This document shows, piece after piece, positions 15,999 through 64,000 of a stretch of 64,000 bases of DNA. Location: assembly GCA_963930775.1 (NCBI GenBank), contig OZ005696.1, positions 5,394,001 through 5,458,000 of the forward strand, given 5' to 3'. The DNA comes from Cliona cf. orientalis. Lineage: Eukaryota > Porifera > Demospongiae > Clionaida > Clionaidae. A model generated the notes under the pieces. It was not told where the DNA came from. It searched no databases and saw nothing but the letters and a program-made list of their open reading frames with translations. Both the position numbers and the translations under genes were made by a program. Every line of letters begins with the position of its first letter. Position 1 is the first letter of the stretch.

Positions 15999-18073
15999 TC
16001 AGTTATATAGGTGTTCTCTAGATTCCATTCTATGTGGTGCATGTTTACCTCCAGGGTGTTGAAGGCGACTGTACTCACTGTCATCCTGTAGCAATGAAAG
16101 ATATTGGTGGAAAATTTGCATGCAAGTGTATGTCCCCATGCCACGTGGGCTAAAAATCAATTGCAGGTTACATTTGAATGCCCATAGGCGCTTGTCTGGG
16201 GTACTATATTTACATTATGATGATAAAACTTACCGTAGCGATAGCAATGCATTCATAGTCCGTAGTACAGAGAGTGTAGCCAGAGACCTGCAGTAGTAGT
16301 ACAGCATATCCACTGTGCACAGTAACATTCTATAGCTGAACTTACTTCATCCTCAAGGGCACAGTGAAAGGTTGTGTTGCTCTGTTGTGCCATATCAGGC
16401 GATTCCCCTTGAGTGATGTGTCCACTGTTGGGTGTTTGGATTACTTGTAATTGTTTGCTCTTCAATATCAACTGATGTGTTAGTAGTATTATTATAGTGA
16501 TCATAATCCCCACTATAATGGCAGAACAGCAAAGTGCAATAGCTACAGCTTCTCTACTGCTCAAAGATTTGACAGCTGAATGACAAACAGAATAATGTTC
16601 ATGAGATGATGAAGCTATCATGATACTGTTACTGTAAGATATGGATGTACCTTTATTGTGCGTATCCATGGTTGTACCGTTGTTATGCATATACATGGTT
16701 GTACTGGATTTAGTATTGTTCTCATAAACAGCGGTTCCCATCCATAATATAGTTTCTGTAATTGTTAGATGGTATTAGTGCAGTTTTGTAATTTTCCCAC
16801 ATGAATTACAAGTTTACCAGTGGAGGGAGTTATTGTAGTAATTGTTGTATGACACTGCTCAATTGAAAAGTTCCCAATTTCGTTAGTTGTTGCACCATCA
16901 TCATCAACACATATTATACTTTTCCCAACCATATCTGGACTGACCGTTACATGTAGTTGTGAAGTATAACAGGGTTCTGAGTCATTGATGGGCAGACTGT
17001 GTCCACGTACTTTCCCACCATTACATAATTTACTGGTAGCGGCAGGCATGTTACTGAAAAGACTATGTGCAAGAACTATTTCATTAGAAGAATCATTACA
17101 GTCCAGAAGGTCTCCCAGAAACACGGTGGATCCTGATCCTCCTGTTGTGCTGCATTCAAATGTCAACGTATCTCCTAAACAGGCCTCTGTTGTCTGATTT
17201 AATTGATTGAAACTCGAAATACAATCTAAGAAATGTATTACAATAAGAATGGTCAACTGTCTATTGATCTTCTTGTAGCAGGGATTACACTAAACAGTAT
17301 CCCCCCCCCCCCCCCCAAATAGCTTGTATATCCTCTGCACAATATCATGGTTATAGTTGCTATATTCTAATTAGCTACAAAGACCTCGTTTATTGCAGTG
17401 GTTTACATTCTTTTACATGTAGAAGACCTTTGTAGCACCCTCACTTCATTATACATCCTTGGACTTTCAGGTCCCTTAAAATATGTATAGAGGCTTTGGA
17501 GTCAGTCTCTATCTATTGTTCATTTCACAGCCTTTGGCGTGGGTACTAGGCTACTGTTGCACTGTGTATCTTGGCAGCCCAATGACCTGTGCATGCTACT
17601 GCTTACCTGCTGATACACAACCGAGAGAGACAGCCACCATGACCTGAATGTTCCAATATTATATATAACAAGTATAAAAACAATTGAATAAAATTGAAGG
17701 ATGAAGTAGAATTGGCAGGATCAAAAAGTACACAAACAAGATTTGTAAGGGATAATCGCATCTACTATACATCCCTACACTTGCTTTTCTTTATCAGGGT
17801 TCTATCCATAGGGGGGGGGGCAGGGGGGAAGCTTCCCCCCCAAAGCACCCAGCTTCTCCCCCAAAGAAGAGTAGCAATAACATTCTTCTGAATTATGTCA
17901 AAGAGTATACATGTTGTACCTAAAACACACTAGATCAGAGCTGCAACATGTACAAATACTGCAATTTGATTGGCTACTGACAGGTATCAATATATCAGCA
18001 ACACTATACCTACATTTTATTAATTAATGTACCTCCCATGCATACTCACCATTGATATCTTAATTGTTGACAT
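15999..18073 (-). CDS. Ig-like single-pass receptor with ITIM-like tail, array copy 1, intact
   Basis: Seven exons: 18073-18050, 17643-17607, 17225-16818, 16755-16651, 16575-16346, 16287-16234 and 16085-15999. All have GT-AG sites, the phases are 0,1,1,1,0,0, and they give about 314 residues. Exons 1-2 encode a signal peptide (MSTIKISMVMVAVSLGCVSA). Exon 3 encodes one Ig-like domain with eight cysteines (DC, EAC, FEC, LDC, LCN, EPC, IIC, EQC) and several N-glycosylation sequons. Exon 4 is a Thr/Asn-rich stalk. Exon 5 holds the transmembrane helix (AIALCCSAIIVGIMITIIIL) and proximal tail. Exon 6 contributes VSGYTLCTTDYECIAIAT. Exon 7 contributes DDSEYSRLQHPGG and the end. The SEYSRL sequence fits the ITIM pattern, and DYECI is a second YxxI site. 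The likely role is a cell-surface inhibitory or recognition receptor. That is inferred from layout only; no ligand or named family is known to me. Confidence 0.8.
17672..17890. repeat. Dispersed repeat with G/C-tract core, in intron 1 of copy 1
   Basis: Positions 17675-17800 match 26465-26600 closely (shared landmark GTACACAAACAA and the adjoining TACATCCCTACACTTGC). The segment ends in a G-run/C-run pair like the G-tract MITEs, but I could not define both termini. Confidence 0.5.
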
Positions 18074-18199
18074 ATTACATGTTTGATGACAGGCTATTTC
18101 TAGATGTTTGTCGTGTATAGTACACTAGCAAATATTCAACTTCGTCTCTCAGGGACAATTCTAATTGGCAAGATTGTGTACAAGTTGATGCATGTGCAT

Positions 18200-18247
18200 C
18201 TGGAGTGAAGTTTAAAAAAACTTGTGTTGATGTCACTTTCAATTCAC
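18200..18247 (-). promoter_or_regulatory. Conserved promoter block of copy 1 (ISRE-like plus TTTAAA)
   Basis: On the gene strand GTGAATTGAAAGTG (18247-18234) precedes a TTTAAA box (about 18216) and CTTCACTCCAG, about 165 bp upstream of the ATG. The same arrangement recurs upstream of the other copies. The first motif resembles an IRF/ISRE site (GAAnnGAAA). Confidence 0.5.
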
Positions 18248-18249
18248 AA

Positions 18250-20057: not shown

Positions 20058-21387
20058 TCAGTTGTGTAGGTGTGCTCTAGATTCCATGCTGTGTGGTACA
20101 TGTTTACCTCCAGGGTGTTGAAGGCGATCATACTCAATGTCATCCTGTAGCAATGGGAAAATACTGGTTACTACATTTGGCATCAGTTTATATGTACATT
20201 AATATTGTATGTGTATCGTTTGTTATAGAGGAGGACTTTTAACACCCAATCTATGTGTATGATATATGCCATAATGTACCTGGTGACAGGTGAGTATTAT
20301 ACATACGTACATGTGCCAAATTTCATGGGGTTAATATAGCTGCTTCCATGCTAATGTATGTACCCATGCAGGCCGAAAATTACACATAAGTTACATTTCA
20401 ATTTTGAATGTCCGTGGGTGCTTATCTGGGGGACTACATACTTTCATGTCTGCATTAAACTTACTGTAACAACAATAATGCGGTCACCATTCATAGTACA
20501 GAGAGTGTATCCAGAGACCTGCAGTTTGTACAGCATATCCACTGTGCATAATGAATACCATTGGTGCCAAACCCTCAGCGCTGTGAGATTTATTGCAATA
20601 GTAGTGACACACTGTGAGTCTAAAGCCATAGATAGCTAGCAGTTTTAAAGTTGTAAGCCTAGCCATGGAGGCATAGATATACATGTACAGTACTGTATGT
20701 ATGATGGAGCAACATGCACTGTTACTCAGTGTGGATAGAGTAGGTGAAGGACGTTGGACTAAAATGGAGTCTAGCTTGAAGAATCGTGACTCAAGGAAGA
20801 ATTGTTGATTAGCTTATGATGACCAGTGATGAGTTATAGAACTACCACTATAGACAGCCTCTGCCTCTGACCATGCATGACTACTGTACCTAACCCTCAC
20901 GCATGTGCTGATGGTTAAAAACATGCATACCGTATATGCAGTGCTCCTGTATGACTTTACATATAAATAGAAGGTAGAGTGTCGAAAGTCAAGAAGCTTA
21001 ACATCAGTAAATGACGCCAAAGCTGGAGAACAAGGTGTTTTCAGCGAAATCCACACAATATATGCATTTGGATGGCTGGAAGAAAATGTACAAAACCGCA
21101 TTTTGGACTCACAAATGAGGTACATGTATATATCAGTTAGCTTGGTAACAGACACACAGAACAACTACAGTAACCCTTGTGCATGCGCTGAGGGTTAATA
21201 ACATTCTACAGCTGAGCTTACTTCATCATTTAGAGCACGGTGAAAGGTTGCCAGGCTCTGTTGTCCTATGTCAGTAGATTTCTCTCGAGTAGTATGTCCA
21301 CTGTTTGGTCTTTGGATAATTTGCAACTTTTTTTTCTTCAATATCAACCCACATGTTAGTAAGATTACTGTAGCAGTCATCACCCCC
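20058..21387 (-). CDS. Ig-like receptor copy 2, 3' half only (assembly gap)
   Basis: Exon 7 (20144-20058), exon 6 (20518-20465) and the distal part of exon 5 (from the N gap at 21387 down to 21222) are present. The ectodomain exons are not seen. Exon 7 reads DDIEYDRLQHPGG, the best ITIM match in the array (I-x-Y-x-x-L). Exon 6 reads VSGYTLCTMNGDRIIVVT, so the second YxxI tyrosine is lost. The intron between exons 5 and 6 holds an insertion (about 20553-21200) that also sits at the same place in copy 8. Sequence beyond the gap (21588-22437) does not resume the gene. Either the real gap is larger than shown, or the copy is 5'-truncated. Confidence 0.7.
20553..21200. repeat. Insertion in intron 5 of copy 2, shared with copy 8
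   Basis: An element of about 650 bp starting near GGTGCCAAACCCTCAGCGC and ending GCGCTGAGGGTTAATA, so its ends are inverted repeats. Its internal landmark AATGACGCCAAA is shared with the element at about 54344-54975, which occupies the homologous intron position in copy 8. Confidence 0.65.
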
Positions 21388-21587: not shown

Positions 21588-22437
21588 TAGGCATGTAAAC
21601 ACACTAGGAGCCATGCAGACAAGTGGTTGCCCCATCTACTAGCTACCTAAGCTCATGGTGAACTTGTAATTAGCAGTAGCAAAACCCAATCGATATCTAA
21701 AATAATATCTGTTGTTCACCATTAGGATCACAATCTACTACTCCTGTTCCACTCAAATTGGTGACTATTTGTCATCCATGTATGTCTCTTTGTTTAGCTG
21801 GACTGTGCTCACTTGGTAAATCAATCTTTGCATATTATTATAAACTGGGTTTCTAAGTTATAAGCCGTAAGGCGGACATTCCTTACATTATAGCCTGTTT
21901 CATAACCTGGAGAGCATAAAGGATGAGCTCAGCTACACAAGCGAGGGAGCCAGGGCCTATACGGTCCATATCCATACAGATGCATTCTTGAGCGAGTGAC
22001 ATAAAGTGCCATGTGTTTTGACACCGAGCCTCGAGCGAAGCGAGAGGTGAGATCTGTTCTTTGTCATAGTCTGGTGGTAGATTCGACGTTGTCACTCTGC
22101 TCGAACGTTACCATTACACAATGAGTTTGAGCAGCTGCTCTTGGCCTGCAGTGAGGGGTGCTTTCTACACCATAATAGCATACGTTCAAGGTTCAGTGCT
22201 GCTTTCATCTGCGCATGCGCACTGTACTAGCCATGTACTGAGCATGCTGTTTAATAGTAGCTCATGCATATTAGCTACATTATCCTGACATCAAACATAC
22301 TTGTTTTGGACATATAAATGAGTCATGTGGCAGGTAGACTGACAGACAGACACACAGAACGTAACCCTTGTGCATGCACCAAATTAACAAAATCACAGTC
22401 CTAGTTACATGTAGTCAGAATTACATATAATATTGTG
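21588..22437. other. Unassigned spacer after the gap
   Basis: No receptor exon or other gene is recognised. It ends with a short GACAGACAGACACACAGAAC-type tract and a TAACCCTT motif at 22364, which mark the end of a dispersed repeat just before copy 3. Confidence 0.4.
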
Positions 22438-25015
22438 TCATTGTAGGTGTGCTCTAGATTCCATGGTGTGTGGTGCATATTGACCTCCAGGGTGTTGAAG
22501 GCGATCATACTCGCTGTCATCCTGTAGCAATGGATAAATGCTGGTGACAAGTTTGCATGCAAATGTATGTCCCCCCATGCCACATGGGCTAAAAATTGAT
22601 AGTAAGTTACATTTGAATCCCCATAGGTGCTTATTCGGGCTACTACATTCACATTATAATAATTAAACTTACTGCAGTTACAGTAATGCAGTCATAATCC
22701 GTTGTACAGAGAGTGTAGCCAGAGACCTGCAGTTTGTACAGCATATCCACTGTGCACAATAATATTCTACAGCTTAGCTTACTTCATCATTATGAATACA
22801 GTGAAAAGTTTCCTGAATCTGTTGTCCCATGTTAGTCGATTCCCCTTGAGTGTTGTGTCCACTGTTGGGTATTTGGATTACTTGTAATTGTTTGTTCTTC
22901 AACATCAACTGATGTGTTAGTAGTATTATTATAGTGATCATGATCACCACTATAATGGCAGAACAGCAAAGTGCAATAGCTGCAGCTTCTCCACTGCTCA
23001 AAGATTTGACAGCTAAATGACAAATTGAATATGTTCATGAGATGATAAAACCAATGTGATGCTATTAGATGTAGATATTGTGCATGTCTATGGTTGTACT
23101 GTTATTATGCCATATTCATGGTTGTACTGGATTTAGTGTTGTTTTTGTAAACAGCAGTTCCTGTCCATACAGATTCTGAAATTGTTAGATAAATTATTAT
23201 AATAGTTCTTATAATGTTTACCAGTTGTGAGAGCTTACCTATTGTTGCATGACACTCCTCAATTGAAAAATTCCCAATTTCTTTTGTTATTGAACCATTG
23301 TCATTAACGCATTTAATACTCTTCCCAATCATATCTGGACTGACTGTTACATGTAGCTGTGAAGTATAACAGGGTTGTGAGTCATTAATGGGCAGACTGT
23401 ATCCACGTACTTTCCCACCATTACATAATTTTTTACTGGTAGCAGCAGGCATGTTACTGAAAAGACTATGTAAAAGAACTATTTCATTGAAAGAATCGTT
23501 ACAGTCCAGAAGGTCTCCTTAAAACACAGTAGCTCCTTGTCCTGGTGCTGTGCTGCACTCAAATATCAGGTTGTCTCCTAAACAGGCCTCTGTTGTCTGA
23601 TTGAAATTTGACATACAATCTAAAAAGCAAATTGCATTATGAATGGTCAAGTGTTATCTTAGTGTTGCTAAAGTTAGCTACATCTTAATTTAGCGAATTA
23701 ACGTGAGGCTAAAATTTCTTCACGATGATATAATTCGTTTAATTAGAAACTGAAAAGTTGAAAAATACAATCGCTTGAGTCCGAGCTTTAGTCCAGTTCT
23801 TCATCAGATGGCGACTTAAGGGCCTCTACCATAGTATGTTTAGTAGTTACCTCACTGCATGAGCATCTGGAATGATCTACTACTCTGAGAATCAAAAATC
23901 TATTATGTATATAAATTTATATAGCTTGAAACCAAAATTGCTAAATTAAGTTGTAGCTAAACGCTCTCTTTTCAAAATGGCTAAATTTAAGTGCCGTTAT
24001 CTTTAAAAACACTAAGGTATTGATCTTCCGGTAGCAGGGACTACAATAATCAGATTATATTCTCTTACTTCTGAAACAACCCTATCCCCTGGCTATTCGA
24101 AAGAATTGAAAATATAAGGGCTGGGGACAAGGCTATGAAAGTACCGTATTTTCTCGTTATTAGGTGCATCTCGCTTATAAGCGCATATTTGTTATTAAGC
24201 GCATGTCATTTTCCTGACGTAAGTACTCGTTGTTATGCGTATTTTGTGTGTAAGCGCATATGTGACCCTTGACCTCGATATCTGCATGCTTTCTTGCAAG
24301 CCCAAGGTTCCAGCCATTTCATGTTACTCAAAATTACGATGGCTACTATCGATTCTCAGGTTCTTCGAGCTATGACTTAGTATGAGCGCCACTTCGAGCT
24401 GGGCGGAATGCAGCAACACGAATGATTGTGCGATCGATCGATTGGCCATGCCCCTAAGTGATATCGTGAACGTGCATGCGTTCTTGGATGCAGCTATTCT
24501 TTATTAGGCGCATTTCGCTATTAGGTGCACTTTGCTATTAAGCGCAGGTTTTCTTCCTGTGGAGATATAAGCACATGCGCTTAGTAGCGGGAAAATACGG
24601 TAATAGTAAATCCAAAATCTCTACACATTCAAGGGACCAGAAAGTCCGAGGCTATAGCATCCCGAGTGAAGTGAAAGTGCTACGAAAGGCCTGAGTATCT
24701 TAATTTTAAAAGACTATAGACCATTGGACAAAGTATTTACTGATCTAGAATATTGGAGCTGTAAATTCAATTGATGTTTGCCCTGGATTCTATTAATAAT
24801 AGTCTTAGCCTACTGTTACATGTACACTGTGTATCTTGTCAGCACAATATTCAATATATTCAGAATATGTACATTACTGCTTACCTGCTGATGCATAACC
24901 AAGGGAGGCAGCAAGTATGACCTGAATATTCCAATATTGATTATATGTATCAGCAGCACTCCAACTACTATATATAAATTAATGTACTCACCATCAATAT
25001 CTTGATTGTTGACAT
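22438..25015 (-). pseudogene. Ig-like receptor copy 3, recently disabled
   Basis: All seven exons are recognisable: 25015-24992, 24921-24885, 23619-23239, exon 4 from 23175, 23012-22783, 22726-22673 and 22521-22438. The signal peptide (MSTIKILMVILAASLGYASA), the transmembrane exon and the tail (VSGYTLCTTDYDCITVTA, then DDSEYDRLQHPGG) are intact. Exon 3 has an in-frame TAA (23519-23521) where the other copies have Gln or Leu before GDLL. Exon 4 has a one-base shift near 23110 that ends the frame. Exon 3 uses a nearer donor than copy 1. Intron 2 carries a 457-bp MITE. Two lesions on an otherwise well-preserved gene indicate recent loss, or a null allele. Confidence 0.75.
24144..24600. mobile_element. 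TA-flanked MITE (CCGTATTTTC ends) in intron 2 of copy 3
   Basis: A 457-bp element bounded by CCGTATTTTCTCGTTATTAG and its approximate reverse complement, flanked by TA on both sides. The homologous intron of copy 4 (27761-27775) lacks it and reads straight through GAAAGTAATAAAATC, which confirms the insertion and the TA duplication. The interior is built of repeated ATAAGCGCAT-like units. The TA target suggests a Tc1/mariner-type mobiliser. Confidence 0.88.
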
Positions 25016-25211: not shown

Positions 25212-25254
25212 CATTTATGATTATTTTATGCAACCAAAAGACCGATACTGTAAA

Positions 25255-25329: not shown

Positions 25330-26690
25330 TATAGGCTGCGGAGCGTTTAGTTAGCCTGTGATACTGTACATGCAGTATACCATAGTGTCCCGGGTAAGCG
25401 CCCATGGGTGCTTAAACATACCTTGCGATTTTGGCCCACATGGGCGCTTACCCAGGATATAACTTCCATACGTTTGTATAGAAGCTGCTACATTGACCCC
25501 TTGAAATGAGGTACATGGGCGCTTACCCGAGAGTGGGGGCTTGCCCGTGATACTAGGGTATATGGTAATAAGCATGAGTCCCTCCAGTATGACAGTGCCC
25601 TACAAGCAGCCATCCCCGTTAATTGTTCCATCTGCATCAATTATTGGGATGCATAATGGTACTGCATGCACTGTATGAATGGTATCTTAGAGTTAGTAGA
25701 TCATAGATGTTAAAAAGGATAACCATTTGTCAATCTTTCTTTCTTCCTTCCTTTCTTTTTCATTTCCAGGACTAGCTCAAGCTGCCTTGACCTCTCATCT
25801 TTGTTCGAGTATAAACCACTCCATTTTGTAGCACGCAGGTCCATGGCACACTTATTTTGCGTTGTCTCGACAGTTACATAATAGTGGGTGTGTATGGCGC
25901 ATTAACGATTGGGTGTGTCTGATACGCCATTTTGTCATATAATGCACATGCTCGGAATGTGTTGCTATGGTGAAGTCATGTGACTGTATAGTCAGCGGCG
26001 CATACGAACCACTGCAGCTAACTATAGCTCGAGCGATCAGTTAGTTCTAGCCTCAAGCCATGCGCCAGGCTCTCCCGCACTAGCTAGCTAGGCCACAAGC
26101 GATGTATAGCGAACTAGGTAGCTAGAGGCTGGCGCACGCAACACTTAGACTAGTGCTGTGCTAAGATATGGAGACTCGAGGCCGATCGAGGAGCGGTAAC
26201 ACACCATTCCTCAGGTGCAGCTCCTCAGCAGTCAGCATAACAGCCTGCAGCTCAGACTAATATAACTTGATTTTCTCCCTAGCGGAATACACTGCCTGGG
26301 CCGCCTAAAACAGCCTTCTTTGTGAGCCTGCTTCATCACCTAGGCAAGTTAATGAGGGGCATGGCTACGACTTTATGCATATGCGCGAACTTCATCTTCC
26401 TACTTACACTGGACCATCAACAAAGAAGTTGAGAGTTAAGTGAGCAAACCATATAAGATGGCATTGATGAATTACACTGAGAGCAGTAAAAAAAGGTGTA
26501 AAAACAATTGAATAAAATTGAGGGATGAAGTAGGTAAAAAAAGTACACAAACAAAGTTTATAAGGGGTAATGGCATCACTATACATCCCTACACTTGCTT
26601 TTTGGGGGTGCAAAAAAGTAACCAGTAATAATGCGACAAAACTGACTATCCCGAGCCATCATGACAGGGGACACACCTGAATATCTAGCC
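25330..26690. other. Spacer with inverted-repeat remnants, no gene
   Basis: Inverted GGGTAAGCGCCCATG / CATGGGCGCTTACCC arms span about 25388-25540. A second dispersed repeat (about 26465-26600) matches 17675-17800. No coding exon is supported. The junction near 26685 truncates receptor copy 4 inside its sixth exon. Confidence 0.5.
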
Positions 26691-26695
26691 AGAGA

Positions 26696-28145
26696 CCTGC
26701 AGTTTGTACAGCATATCCATTGTGCATAATAACATTCTATAGCTGAGCTTACTTCATCATTATTTAGAGCACACTGAAAAGTTAATTGGGTCTATTGTCT
26801 ACATTTTCCATTGATGTTGAAGTAGATTGATTCTACTTGAATTGTATTGTGTCCACTGTTTGGTTTTTGGATTGTTTGCAATCGTTTTTTCTTTAATATC
26901 AACCAATAATATGTTAGTAGTGTTACAGTAGCAACCATGACCCCCACTAACATAGCAGAACAGCAAAGTACAATAGCTGCAATTTCTCTACTGCTCAATG
27001 ATCTGACGGCTAAATACACGGTTTGATGAGATGATAAAGCTAACGAGATGCTGTGAGATATATACCTTTGCTGTGCATATCCATGGTTATACTTGATTTA
27101 GTATTGTTTTCGTAAAAAGTGGTTCCTGTCCGCATAGGCTCTGAAATTGTATAGATAAAATTAATGCAGTATTCCCACATGAATTACATATTTACCAGTG
27201 GAGGGAGCTATTGTAGTAGCTATCATTGAATGGCATTGCTCAATTAAAAAGTTCCCAATTTCATTAGTTGTTGCGCCGTTGTCATAGGTACATTTAATAC
27301 TCTTTCCAATCATATCTGGACTGACTATTACATGTAGCTGTAAAGTATAACAGGCTTCTGAGTCGTTAGTGGGCAGACTGTATCCACGTACTCTCCCATT
27401 GTTACATATATCACTGGCACCAGAGGGCATGTCAAAACGACTATGTGTAAGAATTATTTCATTAGAAGAATGATTACAGTCCAGAAGGTCTCCCTGAAAC
27501 ACAGTAGCTCCTAATCCTGGTGCTGTGCTGCACTCAAATATCAAGGTGCCTCCTAAACAGGCCTCTATTGTCTGATTTAATGGATTAAAACTCGAAATAC
27601 ATTCTAAGAAACAAATTATAATAAGAAATGGTCAACAGCTTATTGATCTTCTTGCAGCAGGAATCGCAGTAATCACAATTATACCCTCCTCCTATACTAC
27701 TAAATCTCCCGGGTATTTGAAGGAATTAAAATATAGGGCTGGGGACAAGGCTATGAAAGTAATAAAATCTCTACATATTCCAAGGACCGGAAAGTCCGAG
27801 GCTATAGTATCCCGAGTGAAGTGAAGATGCTACAAAGGGCCCGAGTGCCTTAATTTTATAAGATTGAAGACCATTGGACAAAGTGTCTAACTAATCTAGA
27901 ATATTGTACATGTAGCTGTAACCTCAATTGACATTTGCCCTGGATAGTAATATTAATAGTCTTAGCCTACTGTTACACTGTGTATCTTGGCAGCACAATA
28001 TTCTACTGCATGTTACTGCTTACCTGCTGATGCATAACCAAGAGAGATGACCTGAATGTTCCAGTATTAATTACATGTATCAACAGCACTCCTACAACTA
28101 TATAAATTAACATATACTCACCATCGATATCTTAATTGTTGACAT
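26696..28145 (-). pseudogene. Ig-like receptor copy 4, tail-less
   Basis: Exons 1-4 read intact: 28145-28122, 28051-28024, 27603-27196 and 27140-27066. They give a shortened signal peptide (exon 2 is 9 bases shorter than in the other copies), an eight-Cys Ig-like domain and a stalk. Exon 5 (27009-26753) keeps the transmembrane helix (VLCCSAMLVGVMVATVTLLT). It then shifts frame after NTIQVES and stops within the exon at about 26795. Exon 6 survives only as VSG then a stop, because unrelated sequence joins near 26685, and exon 7 is absent. The gene could still make a membrane-anchored receptor without either tyrosine motif, a possible decoy, or it may be dead. The extracellular frame has no lesions, which weakly favours recent function. 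Confidence 0.7.
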
Positions 28146-45933: not shown

Positions 45934-45949
45934 AGTACAGACAAAAGCA

Positions 45950-49273: not shown

Positions 49274-49280
49274 GGAGGAG

Positions 49281-52549: not shown

Positions 52550-55500
52550 TTATGTCAGTTGTAGGTGTGCTCTAGATTCCATGCTGTGCGGTGCATGTTG
52601 ACCTCCAGGGTGTTGAAGGCGACTGTACTCACTGTCACCCTGTAGCGAAGGAAACATTTTGATTGCCAAGTTTACACACATGTGTGTATTGTTTGTCATT
52701 CTTGTTGGTGTTTGTATAAACGAGACGTTAACACTAAATATTCCCAGTCCATGTTATTTACCATAATGTACACATGTACAAGGTGAGTGTCTATATGCGT
52801 ACATGTACATGTACTACATTCTTCTTCCATGCAAATGCGTATGCCCATGCGGCTGAAAATTAATACAGTGCAACATCGATTATCTGGACCTCTTTGTCCA
52901 CAGGCTGATCACTGCTATACCAGATAAGTGAAATGTCTGGATAACTGGAGTGCCAACATTTCTCACGTAGTTTATGATACCTAGCCAACAAAAGATACCA
53001 GTGCAGTATGATCATGGCCAGCAGTGTTCAGAAAAGGTCACTCATGATCAGTTTTGGCCAAGGCAAAGCCTGTAGAGCCCATAGCTCATCACTCAACGTG
53101 TAACCACACCCACAAACTTAAGAGCACTGGTCACACTTTCTGCACATGCGTGGTAATGTATTTTCTGGTGTCCATCTAGTTCTGATAATTGAGGTTCCGG
53201 ATAATTGAGGTTGCACTGTAGCAGGTCACTGTACATTTGAATGTCTATGGGTGGGGAGTCTATCAACAGTGGACTGGACTACTGGAATGGATTATTGGAC
53301 TGACGTTTGACCTCAAATTTAGCCCAACAATATTATTGGTGTGTGCATGGGAGAAGAGAGTATAACTGTATATAGATCAAGATGTACATAATTTGCCACA
53401 AGTGTGATTGTTCACATTCTACTTCATATTCACTGTTTAATAACTATAGCAGATTTTGTGTGCCCTACTTTTGTATGCAAATTACTCAGCTATGTATAAA
53501 AGGAACAGATAGGTGGCACGGTAGCTGTACATGTACATGTAGCATGTAACAACTGAAAATGGCAAGTGATTACAGTATAACGAGTGTTGATATTAGTCTT
53601 GCTCCCAGGAGGCTAGGTATAGCCTTGTACCCAGGCCCTTCCTCCTCCTCTAGAGGGGCTTGTGTACGAGGCTAGGTGTTGATGGGCTGGAGATTGAAGC
53701 TTAGTACGCCTCACCTATCCTGTAGGTATCAATAATGAAGGGATTAGCTATTTCCAAACTGAATTCACTATTATGCTGAGAACCCCATGCAACTCCTTGC
53801 CAAATCAACTAGCGCCAGTTCTGCAAGCAGCTACAGTAATAGCTCAGGCTAGCTACGTGTATCATATCCCCCTCATAATTATATCTCATCAAGGCCGCTA
53901 GATCAAAGTACTCTTCAACAAAAGTGGGTGCGGTAGCTAACCGTGATTTAAACAAAATGGCTTGCTAATACGTAGATGTAATATGCATGAAGTAGCCTGC
54001 ATCTACTAGAATCCTCCGAACTCCCTACTTCATGTGACCTATGCTACGCTTTAGATGAGCAAAATAATTGTGGCTAAATTTGAGGTCAAAGGTCAGTCCA
54101 GTAGTCCAGTCCAATAATCCATTCCAGTAGTCCAGTCCACTGTTTACAGACCCCCCATTGAGGAACCATTGTTAATGCATTCTTGTGGGTGCCTATCTGA
54201 GGTACTATGTTTACATTATGATGAATAAACTGAGTATAGCTTGGACTTACTGTTGCTGTAGTGATAACAATGTAGTCATAGTCTGTAGTACAGAGTGTGT
54301 AGCCAGAGACCTGCAGTTTGTACAGCATATCCACTGTGCACAATGAACACCACTGGTGCCAAACCCTCAACACTGTCGGATTTATAGTAATGATATTATA
54401 CTACTCAGGTAGCTATAAAGATGATCGCGTATTATAATATTATTAACAACTTCATAAATAGTGGTACACAGTGATAATTTGCAATTGAACGAGCACTTTG
54501 GACACAGCTTGACTGGAGGCATAATTTGATTTTTTAACAGACATGGACACATCGTCACCAGAAAGGCCTCTGAAAATTGCGAGCTCGATAATAATGACAC
54601 ACGCTTCGCTGTAGGAGCATTCGATATAGTAGCTACTGTATCCATACATCCCCTGACCCCACCTTCGTAACCCTCGCACATGCGTATAATTATTAGGCCT
54701 ATAGCTATGCCATATATAGTGCGACACACCCAGTGTTCTGTTTATACGTAAAGTTAGCTGGCCGGGATCAAGAAGCTTAGAATCAGCAAATGACGCCAAA
54801 ACTGGTGAACAAAGCGTTTTCGGTGAAATCCACACAATCATGCGTTTGGAACGCCATAAGGAACCTTATAATACCGCAAATTGGACTCGCAAACGAGGTA
54901 TGTAGCAGCTAGCGTGGTAACAGACAGACAAACAGACCAATTACCGTAACCCTCGCGCATGCGCCGAGGGTTAATAACACTACAGCTGAGCTTACTTCAT
55001 CATTTAGAGCACAGTGAAAGGTTGCCTGACTCGGTTGTTGTCCTGCGTTGGCAGTTGACGTTGAAGTAGATTCCTCATGAATCATATTATGTCCACTGTT
55101 AGGTTTTTGGATAATATGCAACTGTTTTTTCTTCAATATCAACTGATATGTTAGTATTATTATTGTAACCCCGTACTGTTCACACAGGGCTTGTAGCCCG
55201 TAATAGTAATGTTTAGAGATTCAAATACAGATCGAGAGATAGTAGTCAGAAATCACACTGTGCTTATATACTTAAGGTGCTATGTATAAAACATAAGGAT
55301 AAAGTGTAAGGGCTGCTTACAGACAGCCAGGGTCACAGAACACTAATTAGGTCACACACAAACAAGAAACAGCTTGGTCTAGATTCATTGTTCAGCTTGT
55401 TTTAGTTCGTTACATTATTCCCCTCCACGTGAGAATGATGTGCGTCCTCGCACTAGTCATCGAGTTCTGATTCAGATGTTTGCATGGTGACAACATTTCC

Positions 55501-58500
55501 ATACCAGTCTGGCCGACGTCTTTGTCGTGTAGAGCGACGCAACACGGGTGCTGGTTCTTCGGTAACCTCAGGATTTGAGTTATCTGTAGTGGATGGCCGT
55601 GTGGGAGAGTCTGCCTGATCCACAGAGTTATCTTCACTGTCAGAGCTTGCAGTAGTGGGTTCTAGCTCACTGGTGTCGCTGTCACTGTCGGACTCCTCAG
55701 AAGTGCTTTGCCTGGGCGCAAGGGGCATGGGGGATGTCAGCGATTCAGGACGTTGCCTGAAAGGCTTAAGTCGGTTGAAGTGTACAACTCTACATTTCTT
55801 TAGCTTCTTTTCATCTTGAATCTTGTACAAGACATTACCGATACGTTGTACAATTTTAAATGGTCCTTGCCATGGACAGTGAAGCTTGCGACTCGCGCCA
55901 CGAGGTACTACAGGATTGTGCAGCCATACTTGATCATGTACACGATACGAGCCATTGGTAGCTTGTTTATCATAATTCAACTTTTGACGTTTGTGGGCAC
56001 CTTGCATGTGTGACTTGCCGTAGCTATATGCTTGAGACAGGCGATTCTTGAGTTGCTTGGCTGGGTTATTGCTGGGCAGATCTTCAGCTGGTAAATTCAG
56101 TTGCAAATCGATTGGTAGGCGGGCTTCTCTACCAAACATTAGTTTGAATGGGGTCGCTCCTGCAGTTTCTTGGATACTAGATCTGTAAGCAAACATTAGT
56201 GTTGGAATCTGCCGGTCCCATTTTCGCTGGTCTTCAGAGGTAGCCAAGCTAAGCATATTCAACAATGTACGGTTGAACCTCTCAACAAGACCATCGGACT
56301 GCGGGTGGTATGGTGTTGTACGGGTCTTGTGGATTCCCAATAATGAGCAAATTTTTTTGATTAGCGAGGATTCAAAATTTCTTCCTTGGTCGGTGTGCAG
56401 TGTATCTGGCAGGCCAAATCGGCAAAAGAATTCGTTCACCACTAGGCGGGCTACCGTTGTGGCCTCCATATCCCTCATAGGGTAGGCCTCCTTCCACTTC
56501 GTGAAATAGTCTCCTACCACCAGAATGTACTTGTTTCCTGCGTCTGTCTCGGGGAGTGGGCCAAGGATGTCCATTGCAACTCTTTCCATTGGTCTTGATG
56601 CAATTTCAGTCACCAGCGGAGCACAGGCTTTTTTTGATGGAGATTTCCTGGATGCACACTTGGCACAACTTGCACACCACTGCTCGACATCATGTCTTTG
56701 TCTTATCCAGTAAAATCTATCTCTGGCTTTCTCGAGGGTCTTTTTCACCCCCAGGTGAGCTGCAGTTGAGGAGTCGTGCAAGTTTGCAAGGATCTCTGGG
56801 ACCCAATGCTTCGGAACAACCAGCTGTAGTTTCGGGTTGATGCCTTTTCCTTGCACATCCCTCCAGCAGCGGTAGACAATACCATTCTGGAGAATCAAAT
56901 GGTGTCTTTGATTCCAAAGTATTTGGAGTGCTTTGCTGCAATTCTTTGGGCAGTGCTGAGGCACAACATCCTCTTCTAGCCATGTCGCTACCGCCAATAA
57001 GTTGGGATCTTCCCGCTGGGCAGCTTGAATTTGACCTGGCGTGGTGGCTCCCAGCCAATTGTTACTATACACTGGAGAGACTGGTGCTGCAGTCAGCTCC
57101 AGGGAATGGGGGTGTTCAAGAGAGCTTCGGGATAATGCATCTGCATTTGTGTGTTTCACTCCTGGTCTGTGAGTGATGGTAAACTCGTACTCTGCTAGTA
57201 CTTCCAGCCAGCGGGCAATTTGGCCTTCTGGTTCCCGGAAGCTGTATAGCCACTTTAGAGAGTTGTGATCTGTGCGTACTTCAAAGGATTGGCCATACAA
57301 ATAGGGGCGAAAGTGTTTGATTCCCCATACCAGGGCAAGCATCTCCTTGCGAGTGGCAGCATACTTTCTTTCTGACTTGGTTAGGGCTCGACTCGCATAT
57401 GCAATCACTTGCTCACCCCCGGCATTTGCTTTTTGAGACAGAACCGCTCCAAGGCCTTCCCCGCTAGCATCCACATCTAATGTGAAACACAATTTAAAAT
57501 TTGGCAATGCAAGAACTGGCGTGGAGGTCAACTTGTTCTTGAGATGTAAGAAGGCCTGGTTACAATCTTCTTCCCATTGCCATTTTTTGTTCTTCTCAGT
57601 TAACTTGAACAGGGGCGAGGCTATTTGAGCGAATTCCTTCACAAACCTCCTATAGTATGATGCAAGTCCCAGGAACTGACGGAGTTCCTTGCACGAGGTT
57701 GGGGCGGGCCAGGCAACAATTGCTCTCACTTTGTCAGGGTCAGTCTCCACCCCCCACTGAGAAATTATATGGCCGAGGTAATGAACACTTTGTCGGAGAA
57801 GATGGCATTTGCTTGGCTTGATCTTTAGTTTGGCATCCCTGAGTCGACTGAAAACTTCTGCCAGGCGTTGAAGATGCTCCCCAATAGTCTCACTGAAAAT
57901 GATGACATCATCTATGTAGACCAAACAGGTTGTCCAGTGTAGGTTTCGCAGAACTCTTTCCATCAATCGTTGGAAGGTTGCAGGTGCGTTACATAGGCCG
58001 AACGGCATGACACGAAACTGGTATAAGCCAAAAGGCGTCGAGAATGCCGTTTTTGGCTTATCGTTAGGGTCTACTTCAACCTGCCAGTAGCCACTGGCAA
58101 GATCAAGTGTCGAAAACCATTTAGCCTCTCCTAGCGTATCGAGCGTGTCATCGATCCTGGGGAGTGGGTGTGCATCTTTCTTAGTGAGGTTGTTGATTTT
58201 CCTGAAATCAACACAGAAACGAGTGGAGCCATCCTTCTTCTTTACGAGCACTATGGGTGATGACCATGGGCCATGTGCTTCCTCGATTACGTCTCGCTTC
58301 AGCATTTTGTCTAGTAGTTCGTGAACCTCGCGTCTTTGCTGGAACGGCAGTCTCCTAGCTGGGAGTCTCACTGGGGTAGCTTCCCCAGTATCAATCTTGT
58401 GTCGGACTAGGTCAGTCCGACCCAAATCATCATCTCCTGTAGAAATAATATCCGAGAATTCAAGCAGTAGAGACTGGAGCTGTTCTCTGTCACTGGCTGT

Positions 58501-61500
58501 CGGGCACTCTGCCTTCTCTAACAGCACCTCGATTGCTCCCTCTATGTCTCGGCTGGTGGGTAGTTTCCTTTCGGGGGAGGGATCCACGGTACAGACAACT
58601 TGAGCACCTTCAAGTGGTAGTAGACGCCCAATTTTCTCGTGCCGATGTACCGGAACCGGAGCTGGTGAGGGGTTCAAAATTTGCACAAGTATCTTCTCAG
58701 CTCCTGTATAAGACAATGAATGGGCAATTAATACACCATGCCGTTCTGAAAATTCTTGTGAGGGGTCCAAAACAGCTAAACAAGGGTGCATTACAACTCC
58801 CTCCTCACCCGAGAGATGGACAGGCAACTGGACTTCTGAGGCAGCAGGTATAGTAGTCGACTCTAGGAGTGTCACATGACAAGTGGAGGGCATCTCTTGA
58901 CGAGTGGACAGGTCGAACTGCACTGACTCCCCTCCAGCTAGTAGTATTTGCCGGTGCATATCAACAACGCATCTGTTATGGAGAAGAAAGTCAGCACCTA
59001 GGATGCAGTCCTGGGTGAGTGTTCTTGCCACCAGAACAGGAAACTCCGTCTGCAGGCCTCCCACCTCCAAAAGAACAACCGTTTTCCCCACAATATCTAG
59101 CTCTGCTCCATTTGCTGCCACCACTGGTGAATCTGGAGCCGACAGCTTGCTATTTGAACTTGCTTGATCCCAGATATCTTTCTTCACCAGTGTTACGGCT
59201 GATCCAGTATCAACGAGCATCTTTGTGGTGACTCGAGCTACTTTGCCAGCAACGAGTAGTGTAGAGTTGACCGTAGCATTCCCTGTGGCTGGCCGGTGGG
59301 TAGAGTTTTGGGTTCCTCTTTGTCGGTAGCTACCTCCCGATCGCTGTTGTCCCGACTTCTTAGGGCAGTTGCGCCTAATATGGCCTCTTTCCCGGCATCC
59401 CCAACATATTGGTCCTCCAACTGCGCGCTGGGTAGGCTTTTCTTTCTGCAGCTGTGCTACTTCTTCCGTCAGCCGTTGTAACTGCTTGGTCAATTCAGCT
59501 ATTTGCCAGCTGTTAGTTCCAGCGACTGCATTAGCTGCCTCTGGTGCCGCCGGCGACGTCTGGAGTGAAAAGGTTGGTTCCACCTGGCTACGTTCCTTAT
59601 GTAGTCTCTTTTGTGCGAGTTCAACGGACTGCCTCTGCACAGCGAGTTGGAGAGCTTCATCCAAGGAAGATGGCATTTCTTGCATTAGATAAAGTTGTAC
59701 AGTAGAGGAGTGAACTCCCTGGATGAAGTGGTTCCGCAACACCTCCTGCCGCTGCTCAGGAGACCACTTAGGGTAGGCCTTATCGGCAAGTACGCGCAAA
59801 CATCCTGCATACTCAGCAAATTTCTCTCCCGGTCTTTGTGTGCGACTCTGCAGTTGATGCTGCCATTCCAGCTCGTTTCCTTCTACAGCGAACTGTTGCT
59901 GTAGGCCAGTAGTGACAGCCTTATAGTCAGTGGAGTGCACTAGGCCCAGCTGCGTCACCACCCTGAACGGCTCGTCCTCCAGTAATGGTAGCAATTCCCT
60001 CGTCCATTGGTTTTGTGCAATGCCCAGCTCTCTCACGTACAGTTCGAAACGTGTGAGCCAGAGCTCTATATCTGCCCCAGCAGAGTATCTCACAGGTGGC
60101 CGCATACTCACTCGTAATGGCTGTCTCTCTGTAGCAACCGCTGCTGCAGCTCCTGTCAGTACAGCAGGTGAATCATCAGTAGGCGGTGGATCATCAGTAG
60201 GCGGTGGGTCCTCTTCTCCAGACATAGTTATCCCACTCCTGACACCAATGTAACCCCGTACTGTTCACACAGGGCTTGTAGCCCGTAATAGTGATGTTTA
60301 GAGATTCAAATACAGATCGAGAGATAGTAGTCAGAAATCACACTGTGCTTATATACTTAAGGTGCTATGCATAAAACATAAGGATAAAGTGTAAGGGCTG
60401 CTTACAGACAGCCAGGGTCACAGAACACTAATAATTAGGTCACACACAAACAAGAAACAGCTTGGTCTAGATTCATTGTTCAGCTTGTTTTAGTTCGTTA
60501 CATTATTATAGCGATCATGACCCCCACTATAATGGCAGAACAGCAAAGTACAATAGCTGCAGCTTCTCCACTGCTCAAAGATTTGACAGCTGAATGACAA
60601 ATAGAATGAGATGATAAGGCTAACAAATTATGCTGTATGCTATAGATATACCTTTGTACATGGTTGTATTGCTTTCATAGATAGCGGTTGCTGTCCATAT
60701 AGACTCTGAAGTTACTAAATGAAATTAATACCGTTTTGTATATTATTATTCCCGCATGAATTACAAGTTTACCGGTGGAGAGTGCTATTGGGGCAACTGT
60801 CGTTGCATGGCATTGCTCAATTGAAAAATTCCCAATTTCTTTTGCTGTTGTGCCATTATCGTAGGCACATTTAATACTTTTCCCGATCATATCTGGACTG
60901 ACCAGTACTTGTAGCTGTGAAATGTAACAGGGTTCTGAGTCATTAATGGGCAGACTGTATCCACGTACTCTCCCACTGTTACATGTTTCATTGGTAGCAG
61001 CAGATATGGTATTGAAACGACTATGTAAAAGAGCTATTTCATTACATGAACAGTTACATTCCAGAAGGTCTCCTTGAAACACAGTAAGTCCCCCTCCTTC
61101 TGCTATGCTGCATGCAAATATCAATGTGTTTCCTAAACAGTCCTGTGTTGTTTGATTGAAACTTGATACACAATCTAAGAAACAAATTGCAATAAGAATT
61201 GTCAACTGTGCGTTTATTTTCTTAAGTTGTAATAGAGACTATACTAAGCACAACTTTATCCCCTTCCTTTCTCACTTCTGAATCAACCCTATCTCTTGGC
61301 TTTGTTGAAACCGTAGGAAATAGAAACTGTATGGGGACAAGGATATAATAGGTATGAGTCCATAGCCTCTATATATCTTAAGGGACCTCAGAAGGTTCGA
61401 GGCTGGAGCATCCTGAGTGAGGTGAGGGTGCTGCAAGGGGCCTGACTAAACCATTGGACGAAATCTCTAACTGATATATATATATAGCTGCTGTAACCAT

Positions 61501-61714
61501 GACACTCATGGGTACTAGCTATATAGACTACTGTTGCACTACGTATGTATCTTATCAGCCCAATATTCAGACTGTGCATGTATATTACTGCTTACCTACT
61601 GATACATAACCAAGAGAGACAGCCACTGTGACCTGAGTATTTCAATATTACATGTCTGAGCATGATTAGTCTACCATACATAAAACTCACCATCAGTATC
61701 TTCATTAATGACAT
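52550..61714 (-). CDS. Ig-like receptor copy 8, split by a Gypsy element in its transmembrane exon
   Basis: Exons: 61714-61691, 61632-61596, 61174-60773, 60705-60652, exon 5 in two parts (60589-60503 and 55163-54996) either side of the LTR element, 54310-54251, and 52639-52550. Every exon is otherwise open and in the family phases. The ectodomain has extra cysteines (LLECNCSCNE). Exon 6 is the longest version, VSGYTLCTTDYDYIVITTAT. Exon 7 gives GDSEYSRLQHPGG. The intron between exons 5 and 6 holds the element shared with copy 2, and the last intron holds two further MITEs. The split allele cannot encode a normal receptor through ordinary splicing. An allele without the insertion may exist in the population. 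Confidence 0.8.
52866..53218. mobile_element. pogo/Tigger-like MITE in the last intron of copy 8
   Basis: A 353-bp element between TA repeats (52864-52865 and 53219-53220). The ends are CAGTGCAACATCGATTATCT and, inverted, CAGTGCAACCTCAATTATCC. CAGT...CCTC...TTATCCGG ends and a TA target match the pogo/Tigger branch of Tc1/mariner. Confidence 0.85.
53253..54156. mobile_element. Long-TIR element (CAGTGGACTGGACTACTGG) in the last intron of copy 8
   Basis: About 900 bp with inverted ends of more than 60 bp, starting GGGGAGTCTATCAACAGTGG on the left and mirrored to about 54156. A tandem-like GGACTACTGGA core sits within the TIR. No transposase or clear target duplication was found. Confidence 0.75.
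54344..54975. repeat. Insertion in intron 5 of copy 8, shared with copy 2
   Basis: About 630 bp, homologous to 20553-21200 and at the same intron position. It ends CGCGCATGCGCCGAGGGTTA. Confidence 0.65.
55164..55414 (-). repeat. Gypsy 3' LTR
   Basis: 251 bp, direct repeat of 60249-60502. Confidence 0.95.
55453..60225 (-). CDS. Gypsy gag-pol polyprotein
   Basis: One open frame of 1,590 codons from the ATG at 60225, shortly after the primer site. The order is gag, CCHC knuckle (CWGCRERGHIRRNC, about 277-290), protease (VDTGSAVT, about 337), reverse transcriptase (YIDDVIIFS, about 768) and RNase H (DVDASGEGLG, about 917). Then come the integrase HHCC (HLGVKKT...CASCAKC) and the core D, D, E (MDILGPLP about 1215, HTDQGRNFE about 1276, SDGLVERFNRT about 1312). 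A GPY/F-like module (WQGPFKIVQRIGNVLYKI) follows, then an acidic Ser-rich tail. No chromodomain is apparent and no envelope frame is present. Gag and pol are fused without a frame change. It is mobile-element sequence, not a host gene. Confidence 0.96.
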   Translation of the reverse strand: MSGEEDPPPTDDPPPTDDSPAVLTGAAAAVATERQPLRVSMRPPVRYSAGADIELWLTRFELYVRELGIAQNQWTRELLPLLEDEPFRVVTQLGLVHSTDYKAVTTGLQQQFAVEGNELEWQHQLQSRTQRPGEKFAEYAGCLRVLADKAYPKWSPEQRQEVLRNHFIQGVHSSTVQLYLMQEMPSSLDEALQLAVQRQSVELAQKRLHKERSQVEPTFSLQTSPAAPEAANAVAGTNSWQIAELTKQLQRLTEEVAQLQKEKPTQRAVGGPICWGCRERGHIRRNCPKKSGQQRSGGSYRQRGTQNSTHRPATGNATVNSTLLVAGKVARVTTKMLVDTGSAVTLVKKDIWDQASSNSKLSAPDSPVVAANGAELDIVGKTVVLLEVGGLQTEFPVLVARTLTQDCILGADFLLHNRCVVDMHRQILLAGGESVQFDLSTRQEMPSTCHVTLLESTTIPAASEVQLPVHLSGEEGVVMHPCLAVLDPSQEFSERHGVLIAHSLSYTGAEKILVQILNPSPAPVPVHRHEKIGRLLPLEGAQVVCTVDPSPERKLPTSRDIEGAIEVLLEKAECPTASDREQLQSLLLEFSDIISTGDDDLGRTDLVRHKIDTGEATPVRLPARRLPFQQRREVHELLDKMLKRDVIEEAHGPWSSPIVLVKKKDGSTRFCVDFRKINNLTKKDAHPLPRIDDTLDTLGEAKWFSTLDLASGYWQVEVDPNDKPKTAFSTPFGLYQFRVMPFGLCNAPATFQRLMERVLRNLHWTTCLVYIDDVIIFSETIGEHLQRLAEVFSRLRDAKLKIKPSKCHLLRQSVHYLGHIISQWGVETDPDKVRAIVAWPAPTSCKELRQFLGLASYYRRFVKEFAQIASPLFKLTEKNKKWQWEEDCNQAFLHLKNKLTSTPVLALPNFKLCFTLDVDASGEGLGAVLSQKANAGGEQVIAYASRALTKSERKYAATRKEMLALVWGIKHFRPYLYGQSFEVRTDHNSLKWLYSFREPEGQIARWLEVLAEYEFTITHRPGVKHTNADALSRSSLEHPHSLELTAAPVSPVYSNNWLGATTPGQIQAAQREDPNLLAVATWLEEDVVPQHCPKNCSKALQILWNQRHHLILQNGIVYRCWRDVQGKGINPKLQLVVPKHWVPEILANLHDSSTAAHLGVKKTLEKARDRFYWIRQRHDVEQWCASCAKCASRKSPSKKACAPLVTEIASRPMERVAMDILGPLPETDAGNKYILVVGDYFTKWKEAYPMRDMEATTVARLVVNEFFCRFGLPDTLHTDQGRNFESSLIKKICSLLGIHKTRTTPYHPQSDGLVERFNRTLLNMLSLATSEDQRKWDRQIPTLMFAYRSSIQETAGATPFKLMFGREARLPIDLQLNLPAEDLPSNNPAKQLKNRLSQAYSYGKSHMQGAHKRQKLNYDKQATNGSYRVHDQVWLHNPVVPRGASRKLHCPWQGPFKIVQRIGNVLYKIQDEKKLKKCRVVHFNRLKPFRQRPESLTSPMPLAPRQSTSEESDSDSDTSELEPTTASSDSEDNSVDQADSPTRPSTTDNSNPEVTEEPAPVLRRSTRQRRRPDWYGNVVTMQTSESELDD
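60230..60247 (-). promoter_or_regulatory. Gypsy primer-binding site, tRNA-Leu
   Basis: The plus strand reads ATCCCACTCCTGACACCA. As recalled, this equals the last 15 bases plus CCA of animal tRNA-Leu(CAG), so the element's RNA would pair with that tRNA over 18 bases. It sits one base from the 5' LTR. Confidence 0.8.
60249..60502 (-). repeat. Gypsy 5' LTR
   Basis: 254 bp, direct repeat of 55164-55414. Confidence 0.95.
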
Positions 61715-61845: not shown

Positions 61846-61881
61846 TTTGAAAAACCTACACTAATGGCAGTTTCAATTCAC
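61846..61881 (-). promoter_or_regulatory. ISRE-like promoter block of copy 8
   Basis: GTGAATTGAAACTG (61881-61868), then TTCAAACTTCACTCCAGG, about 155 bp upstream of the ATG. Confidence 0.5.
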
Positions 61882-61884
61882 AAC

Positions 61885-63799
61885 AGTAGTATTATGCAAC
61901 CTGTAGATTGTGTTATCTTTTTAACTGTGTATAATGTTTACGTGGTCTGTATATAGCATCTACAATATCAGGTACTGTGCATATTCATACACACTGTAGA
62001 GTCCCTCTCCTGTTACATAATTCTTCCATTTTCATATAATTTTTGTAGTAAATTTCCATGACTTGTATACACGTAGCTTCATGCAGTAGATTATAGGTTC
62101 TGAAAGGACAGACCTAGCATACATGTATAAATAGCATGTAATGTACATGTATTATATTATGTACCAAGGTGTGCATATTCAAAATAAGCCCCCTCTCCAG
62201 TCTTGGCTATATCTACAGCTGAAAAAAGTTGGGGGGGGGGGGGGGCTTATTTTTAGGAGGATAATTATAGTATAGTAGTACCCTTGCGAAATTAAGATAT
62301 CGGCCCACCCCGTTTGCCCGCTGGCTCTAGCAATATTAAAGTACGTATAATATGATCTAATAGATACTGTTTAGTCGGTTTCTATATGTGATTTAGAAGA
62401 CCTCAGGTCTCTCATAGAACCCTCACTTTGCTCAGAATTCTATATTATAGAGTCACTAATATGTATGTATGGAGCAAAGTACTACGTGTATTCTGCTCTA
62501 TGTTCGTGTCTATACACTAATACAAGAGCTACATTTGTAGAAAGGGGGCTCAGCATGATAAGAATATATTTTGTTTCATACTGCCATCTTTCTCAAATGG
62601 TCCCTTTCCTTAATTAAGCTGATCACATAATACAATGGAACCTTGCTTAGCAGTCACTCAGTAAAGTGGTCAGTAAGCAAGGTCCCAAAATTTTATCAAT
62701 AGTATAGTGTAAGCCGCCATTTATCGGCATACAAATTTCCCCGATTTATAACTCCTGCCAGGAATGATGTATGAACTTGGTTCTTGCACCGAAAGAAAGC
62801 TCATAAAGTAGGCTTTCATTAGCTAGAATCCAGAGAGGTATACCCTATTAATTAACGATCTACGAGCACTAATGCGCAGACATCACAATACCATTTATTG
62901 TCAACCGGTACATATTATTGGCACACCTATTCTTTCCATATTGGCGAATGCGCCATTTTTTGGCACCTGGGCTTTCTTGAGCCTTTTACTGCTGCCTTAC
63001 TTGCCATAAAATCATAGAAAAAATATCCCCAGATACCTTCTCACTATATCTCTCTTCTCATATCGATCGCTTGCTTCGTCTTTGAACAGCAGCCGTGACT
63101 GTGTTGATACTACACATAAAATCGATACTTGAGCCATTTCAACAGTACGATAAAATCACGAAGGGCTAGGATGTGTACTTTCAAAGGGCACTGACAGCCT
63201 GGGTATACAAAAAAATGTATACACAATTAATAACACACCTGCATGGGGCAAATAAATGATAATCCTGCTTAAACTTTAAGTATGCTCAGCTAATACGATG
63301 TCATGCATAATCTACAAACACTGCCATATTTTTGTTGTTTTCGCCACTATCATATTGTGTGAGTGCTCATGTTCTGGCAAAACTTCCAGAACCATTCTAA
63401 TGGCAGCTCTTAGGCCGCCTTTGAGCTGCTTATGAATTTTTCGATTCTAATTGGAGGGACCTGCTTGATTTGTAATTATTTTTAGGGGCGCCTAAATTAA
63501 AAGTATGCAGTAATTGGTTCTGTCATTGCCGTCATCATCCGTATGAAACTCGCCAGATCTCAATATCTAGGTGTCTTAGTGAGTGGCCAGTACTATCACA
63601 ATGTCAAATAGCCGATAGGCCACACCTATTGACCACACTAAGTATGCCATGTGCTGCTCAAATTGCGCATACTCAAGCTCATTATAGGTAAGGGTAACTC
63701 ATCACGTCTTCAAATACAGACTCATAGATTCATGGCTCTGAATCTCTAGTGCACTACAATGATAAGGATTGCTCTAAAGAGTTGAGCTCAATATTGTTA
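61885..63799. other. Duplicated upstream flank of copy 8, no gene
   Basis: Paralogous to the copy 7 flank (44300-44520 joined to 49685-52290). It shows the Copia-free site near 62105-62117. A pogo-like end (ACAATGGAACCTTGCTTAGC) occurs at about 62632, also at 50192. No coding exon is supported. Confidence 0.6.
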
Positions 63800-64000
63800 T
63801 TAGAGGAGGTCTCTAGGTCTCATGCCCGGTGCAGGTTGGCATGTGGGATGTTGAAGGTGGCTGTATTCACCATCATCCTGCAGCCAGAAAAACAGTGTAA
63901 TTTCATATAATATTGCACTTCTCATCTCATAGACTTACTGTGATAATGACAACTCGATCATAATCCATCGTACACAGAGTATAGCCAGAAGCCTGTATTG
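63800..64000 (-). CDS. Ig-like receptor copy 9, last two exons (continues outside the window)
   Basis: Exon 6 (63992-63939) reads ASGYTLCTMDYDRVVIIT and exon 7 (63877-63800) reads DDGEYSHLQHPTCQPAPGMR then RDLL-stop. Both keep phase 0 and both tyrosine motifs (YDRV and GEYSHL). The C-terminus after LQHP differs from all other copies, so this is a more distant branch. The rest of the gene lies beyond position 64000. Confidence 0.7.

Follow-up and report, generated by a model that had tools for sequence, protein, structure and literature searches.

Tandem immunoglobulin (Ig) receptors with tyrosine-bearing tails that evolve by birth and death include the KIR, LILR, and SIGLEC clusters, and FcgammaRIIA and CEACAM3 of mammals are single-pass Ig receptors that carry an immunoreceptor tyrosine-based activation motif (ITAM) in their own tail and need no adaptor. 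By plan, the systems that appear nearest to the locus described here are Alr of Hydractinia and the fester co-receptors (FcoR) of Botryllus. In the accessible text of the papers on them, the single-pass Ig-superfamily proteins of the Alr gene complex are confirmed as such by structure prediction (PMC11067881) and have V-set and I-set domains (PMC11999971), and FcoR combine a variable Ig domain, a sushi domain, and two C2 Ig domains with motifs that vary from locus to locus, being inhibitory (ITIM), hemITAM, or core ones; ITAM and ITIM motifs are also reported there for allorecognition candidates (PMC12065747). Here, we describe a receptor cluster in the sponge Cliona cf. orientalis (assembly GCA_963930775.1, contig OZ005696.1; C8:5394001-5458000 of a 216.8-Mb, 149-contig genome), with "the window" denoting this whole stretch of 64,000 nucleotides. 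We read the cluster as tandem type I membrane receptors with one predicted V-set domain and a putative self-contained, activating ITAM-type tail, serving recognition of microbes or of self and non-self, and give this reading an even chance.

A tblastn search with the exon-3 sequence of c1, the first copy, located 7 ectodomain copies in the window, every one on the minus strand, and a whole-genome search added 2 (c8 and c9) just past the right edge as well as weaker relatives elsewhere. Ectodomain copies were named c1 to c9 from left to right, and a tenth copy, a tail-only fragment, was named cF. Half of the 10 are open (c1, c4, c6, c8, and c9), 4 are broken but retain the ectodomain, and 1 is the fragment, which has lost the second tyrosine and is cut by, or abuts, a 200-N gap (21388-21587); in c3, the frame is lost in exon 5. 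The first-pass annotation had proposed nine or more seven-exon copies on the minus strand: the cluster was confirmed, but of c8, the window contains just the last two exons. Its copies 1, 5, and 7, described as open with matching splice phases, are probably c1, c4, and c6, because the order is c1, cF, c2, c3, c4, c5, c6, and these three are indeed open with the same plan and phases. Other copies had been considered dead or damaged, which is the case for c2, c3, c5, c7, and cF but not for c8 and c9, which are open past the window edge.

Exon limits were defined as conserved islands in an alignment of the copies, bounded by GT/AG sites, and the splice junctions given here are accordingly predicted ones. 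The exons of c1 (24, 37, 408, 105, 230, 54, and 87 bases) would encode a 314-residue protein, ending exactly at position 15999, where the earlier description of the cluster began, and the same seven-exon plan was rebuilt for c4 and c6. All seven exons are common to c1, c4, c6, and c8, and no stalk exon was found in c9. The Ig exon is symmetric, with phase 1 at both ends, and in c1 it encodes the eight cysteines noted previously (counted by eye); the single-pass plan with a signal peptide, a Thr/Asn-rich stalk, and one hydrophobic helix also stands, each element being judged by eye. No spliced junction was present in the public open reading frames (ORFs) read (P0001-P0028 and P0128-P0154), and the ORFs from the last protein search continue into the intron where they pass an exon end.

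Structure prediction supports the proposed Ig fold: the AF2 model of the c1 ectodomain aligns to V-set domains, the structural matches followed up being V-set ones, and by this predicted fold the ectodomain belongs to the V-set of the Ig superfamily. Residues C25 and C106, the B-strand and F-strand cysteines, are conserved in at least 90% of 123 aligned sequences and would form a disulphide. At the C-strand position, the wider family has Trp as its consensus and the window copies have Phe; on the F strand, GKxIxC occupies the place of the Tyr motif D-x-G/A-x-Y-x-C. In line with the statement that the sequence matches no known family, c1 has no match to a Pfam Ig profile, and among the 123 family members, these profiles yielded a single weak match (C2-set_2, E 0.049).

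The tail ends in two short exons with the pattern Y(E/D)x(I/V)-x8-Y(S/D)(R/H)L, which in c1 read VSGYTLCTTDYECIAIAT (exon 6) and DDSEYSRLQHP (exon 7). The YxxI/V-x8-YxxL pair is kept in all 5 open copies, and the strict ITAM, YxxI/L-x6-8-YxxI/L, in 3 of them (c1, c4, and c6), the same 3 that contain a canonical ITIM, [SIVL]xYxx[IVL], which is absent from c8 and c9. Among 20,000 shuffles per tail, the loose ITAM arose by chance at 0.45-1.19%, the strict one at 0.25-0.69%, and the ITIM at 7.5-18.5%. The tails had been termed ITIM-like, wording that is not supported as it stands, and because the spacing is found in 5 of 5 open copies and is rare in shuffles, whereas the ITIM is found in 3 of 5 only, we consider them ITAM-like by motif. 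The DNA patterns of exons 6 and 7 (up to 3 mismatches) each occur at nine places in the genome, all on the minus strand and all in this cluster, and the reversed control pattern had zero genome matches. Of six regions compared across the 5 open copies, the ratio of nonsynonymous to synonymous change (dN/dS, omega) is lowest in the core tail (0.29), followed by the Ig domain (0.39).

In the mechanism we favor, a ligand bound by the variable loops of the V domain would cluster the receptors, a Src-family kinase would phosphorylate both tail tyrosines, and a protein with two SH2 domains would dock on the tyrosine pair, namely a Syk-type kinase if present or possibly an SHP-type phosphatase. The tail pair and its two-SH2 docking would make each copy a self-contained activating receptor in the manner of FcgammaRIIA and CEACAM3, a role in immunity or allorecognition being the one we envisage. 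Copies would turn over through duplication, decay, and retroelement insertion, with the core of the tail staying constrained.

Alternatively, though this is unlikely, the receptors could be inhibitory like those of the KIR, LILR, and SIGLEC clusters, with an SHP-type phosphatase recruited to the last tyrosine to dampen activation. An inhibitory function is consistent with the S-E-Y-x-x-L sequence of c1, c4, and c6 and with an SH2-SH2-phosphatase gene in the genome (L033; two SH2 matches, with Pfam SH2 at 5e-15 and phosphatase at 8e-34 on its frames), probably accompanied by a second one identified by eye (L036). However, 2 of the 5 open copies have no canonical motif, a single ITIM is more easily obtained by chance, and under an inhibitory function, the conserved second tyrosine and the eight-residue spacing would be superfluous. 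SH2 matches number 103 in the genome, which has genes combining SH2 with a tyrosine kinase, and seven SH2 regions were read (L032, L033, L034, L036, L037, L038, and L039). As Syk candidates, all were set aside, most being named by eye: L032 is RASA1-like, L033 and L036 are SHP-like, L037 is PLC-gamma-like, L038 has two SH2 exons with no kinase seen, and L034 and L039 are of the SH2 plus kinase type. Separately, a single 2925-aa open frame at C17:2316562-2325288 contains, in tandem, ten tyrosine-kinase-family matches (PF07714) and one SH2 match, poly-kinase runs of smaller size are located at C6:5771139-5774296 and C2:7894805-7897624, and an array of SH2 plus kinase frames occupies a single strand of C7:1892335-2144565.

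Variation was assessed with 154 public proteins from three overlapping searches (all 28, the best 120 of 270, and all 41). The window's own exon-3 frames account for 7 of them, and 2 others are 91-93% identical to c8. Thirty proteins belong to the c1-c7 type (56-87%) and 5 to the c8/c9 type (49-57%); a further 100 fall under those thresholds, and 10 have no ectodomain match to the copies. The 30 public relatives that none of the copies here closely matches, together with the 4 broken copies and 1 fragment of 10, bear out the earlier proposal of birth-and-death evolution in tandem. P0002 equals c1 except for the start residue and is listed with a contig of 1,243,260 bases; P0013, P0019, P0023, and P0026 are listed with one of equal length, presumably the same contig. 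Because the best matches of P0013 and P0023 in the present genome are 73% and 85%, that contig and this genome probably have different copy sets near c1, or else the assemblies differ. Among 33 sequences (6 window copies and 27 public), mean entropy was 1.47 in the BC and FG loops versus 0.77 elsewhere, a value reached by no other of 101 shifts of the loop mask. The six-codon BC loop is the only loop with omega above 1 (2.07), too few codons for a claim, and the signal peptide of c1, c4, and c6 is likewise too short for its 1.79 over 22 columns to be interpreted. FG-loop codons also vary at synonymous sites (proportion of synonymous differences 0.59, omega 0.26), so loop variability alone is no proof of selection. 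These data suggest diversification of a binding face; positive selection is not shown, and across the whole ectodomain, it is not supported by the exon-3 values.

Several points weigh against an activating recognition receptor with diversified loops. The loop mask was chosen after the entropies had been seen, and the segment at residues ~41-49, outside the loops resembling complementarity-determining regions (CDRs), matches the BC loop in variability (six-residue means of 1.59 and 1.55). Ectodomain dN/dS had been set beforehand as a test, and the pairwise exon-3 values of 0.24-0.54 lean against diversifying selection; CDR-like codons taken together gave 0.53 versus 0.43 elsewhere. When c1, c4, and c6 are considered alone, the core tail (0.48) is no longer lower than the Ig domain (0.46), with the membrane region at 0.95, and because the copies are related, agreement among them is not independent. 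The first motif is YxxV in c8 and c9, so that the strict ITAM is limited to 3 of 5 copies, and endocytosis also makes use of YxxI/L motifs. Of the 103 SH2 matches, the seven regions read revealed no Syk-type gene, a Syk-family kinase being reported for Amphimedon in the accessible literature.

Presence and absence of relatives around c1 also bear on an unlikely reading of the copies as allodeterminants in the manner of Hydractinia Alr1/2, whereby the Ig domains would bind themselves or their alleles across cells and the tail would signal compatibility. Single-pass Ig proteins, a tandem complex, and divergent copies all agree with it, as would P0013, P0019, P0023, and P0026 lying beside the counterpart of c1 while P0013 and P0023 find at most 73% and 85% identity in this genome. 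In the public contigs, however, species differences are indistinguishable from alleles, and average dN/dS is below 1. The published sponge candidates are, moreover, aggregation factors; a paper on these factors is cited in the accessible text of PMC12065747.

It is improbable that the copies are endocytic or scavenger receptors, in which clathrin adaptors would read the tail tyrosines as YxxPhi sorting signals and particles or microbes would be captured for uptake by the variable Ig domain. Filter feeders capture bacteria, and YECI, YDCI, YSRL, YSHL, and YDRV all match YxxPhi. Yet sorting requires no fixed x8 spacing between motifs, and in the accessible text, the scavenger-type receptors said to have expanded in sponges belong to the SRCR type (PMC10855680, PMC4772301). 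A mostly decaying gene family without current function is very unlikely: 5 of the 10 copies are not open and two long terminal repeat (LTR) elements with near-identical LTRs lie inside the cluster, but 5 copies are open across all exons, with the low omega of tail core and Ig domain given above (0.29 and 0.39), and c8 has relatives at 91-93% elsewhere. The element inserted in c7 has a 1603-aa open frame of the Gypsy type, as read by eye, and the Copia element could affect the promoter of the open copy c6.

Table. Receptor copies, mobile elements, and other features of the window (positions in the window unless a contig is given)
Feature	Position	Strand	State and details
c1	15999..18073	-	open; 7 exons with GT/AG ends: 18073-18050 and 17643-17607 (signal peptide), 17225-16818 (predicted V-set Ig), 16755-16651 (stalk), 16575-16346 (transmembrane and tail), 16287-16234 (exon 6), 16085-15999 (exon 7)
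cF, tail-only fragment	20113..21387	-	partial exon 5 21198-21386, exon 6 20484-20512, exon 7 20113-20144
c2	22434..24935 (upper limit approximate)	-	broken; exon 3 (23228-23626) has an in-frame stop, exon 4 an inserted base
c3	26690..28130 (limits approximate)	-	broken; exon 3 open (27176-27610), exon 5 ends in stop, exon 6 truncated
c4	32363..34288	-	open; 7 exons; Ig exon 33332-33736, exon 6 32765-32818, exon 7 from 32452, stop codon 32363-32365
c5	36905..41010 (upper limit approximate)	-	broken; frameshift in exon 3 (39565-40000), exon 7 altered
c6	41962..44151	-	open; 7 exons; Ig exon 43236-43637, exon 6 42681-42734, exon 7 41962-42051
Copia LTR element	44526..49679	+	LTRs identical over 397 nt compared; 375 bases upstream of c6 exon 1
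c7	52608..61700 (upper limit approximate)	-	broken; open Ig exon (60756-61181); LTR element splits exon 5, remainder at 54981-55163; exon 6 54276-54304, exon 7 52608-52639
LTR retroelement in c7 exon 5	55164..60502	-	5.3 kb; LTRs ~251 nt, 99% alike over 184 nt compared
c8 exons 6 and 7	63800..63992	-	open; exon 6 63939-63992, exon 7 63800-63877; other exons beyond right edge, C8:5458060-5459282
Open frame	7964-8845	-	MIIP match (PF15734, E 6.6e-14)
142-aa frame	230-658	+	signal-like start (by eye); no Pfam match

The locus is not isolated. The c1 exon yielded 150 scored genome matches (of 348 candidates), ten being this cluster's, and 101 of the 150 map to contig C1, 94 of them at C1:2756098-3878582 (counted by hand), an array that forms a far larger receptor cluster than that of the window. 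Downstream of the Ig exon, 8 of the 9 C1 loci read (L012, L014, L017, L018, L021, L025, L029, and L030, but not L011) carry an FN3-like frame, then a membrane helix, and then a tail bearing MYE-type and DN(V/I)AYG motifs; one FN3-like frame matched Pfam fn3 at E 0.01 and another had no match. The C1 family shares with the cluster a homologous Ig-like exon, 33-47% identical to c1, but differs in its FN3-like frame and other tyrosine tails, and the exon 6 and 7 patterns have no match on C1. The window cluster is a compact branch of a genome-wide ectodomain family, with a tail of its own. The same Ig-like exon precedes a membrane helix and, ~0.5 kb on, a death-domain-like frame by eye, for which Pfam gives no match, at L035 (C9:6526001-6533500). 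At L022, it is accompanied downstream by FN3-like frames and a Sushi domain (Pfam 2.8e-6), and at L026, it occurs in tandem Ig-FN3 units, as judged by eye; the latter two represent domain shuffling around the cluster-type ectodomain.

Sponges tell self from non-self, and the receptors involved are not settled. We tentatively suggest, as a possibility short of an even chance, that the locus belongs to an undescribed recognition system of an early-branching animal, in which V-set germline diversity would be high in the loops equivalent to CDR1 and CDR3 and coupled to an ITAM-type tail, with a larger sister array (94 exons, C1:2.76-3.88 Mb) using other tyrosine tails. If so, variable V domains and ITAM-type signaling would have been paired at or near the base of animals, or would have arisen there independently, and a compact V-set/ITAM-like family would carry that logic to an earlier branch as a small, testable gene set in one 55-kb region. 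Among the open PMC papers listed, no title or opening of an abstract describes such a family, and a sponge graft transcriptome paper (PMC5450542) contains none of the five terms looked for in it.

Set against the systems introduced above, the cluster shares the own-tail ITAM plan of FcgammaRIIA and CEACAM3, with no sequence relation detected by Pfam or PDB profile search. With KIR, LILR, and SIGLEC, it has in common the tandem arrangement, birth-and-death turnover, and tyrosine tails, from which it departs in its ITAM-like spacing, its one V-set domain, and the lack of a Pfam Ig profile match for c1. Resemblance to Hydractinia Alr, considered by plan, would lie in the complex of single-pass Ig proteins with tyrosine motifs, whereas only a single V-set domain is predicted here, and polymorphism and allorecognition are shown for Alr only. 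Botryllus FcoR, also compared by plan only, are likewise multigene Ig receptors with tyrosine motifs in their tails (PMC12065747, accessible text), but the sponge receptors would differ from them in having a single domain and one paired motif common to all 5 open copies.

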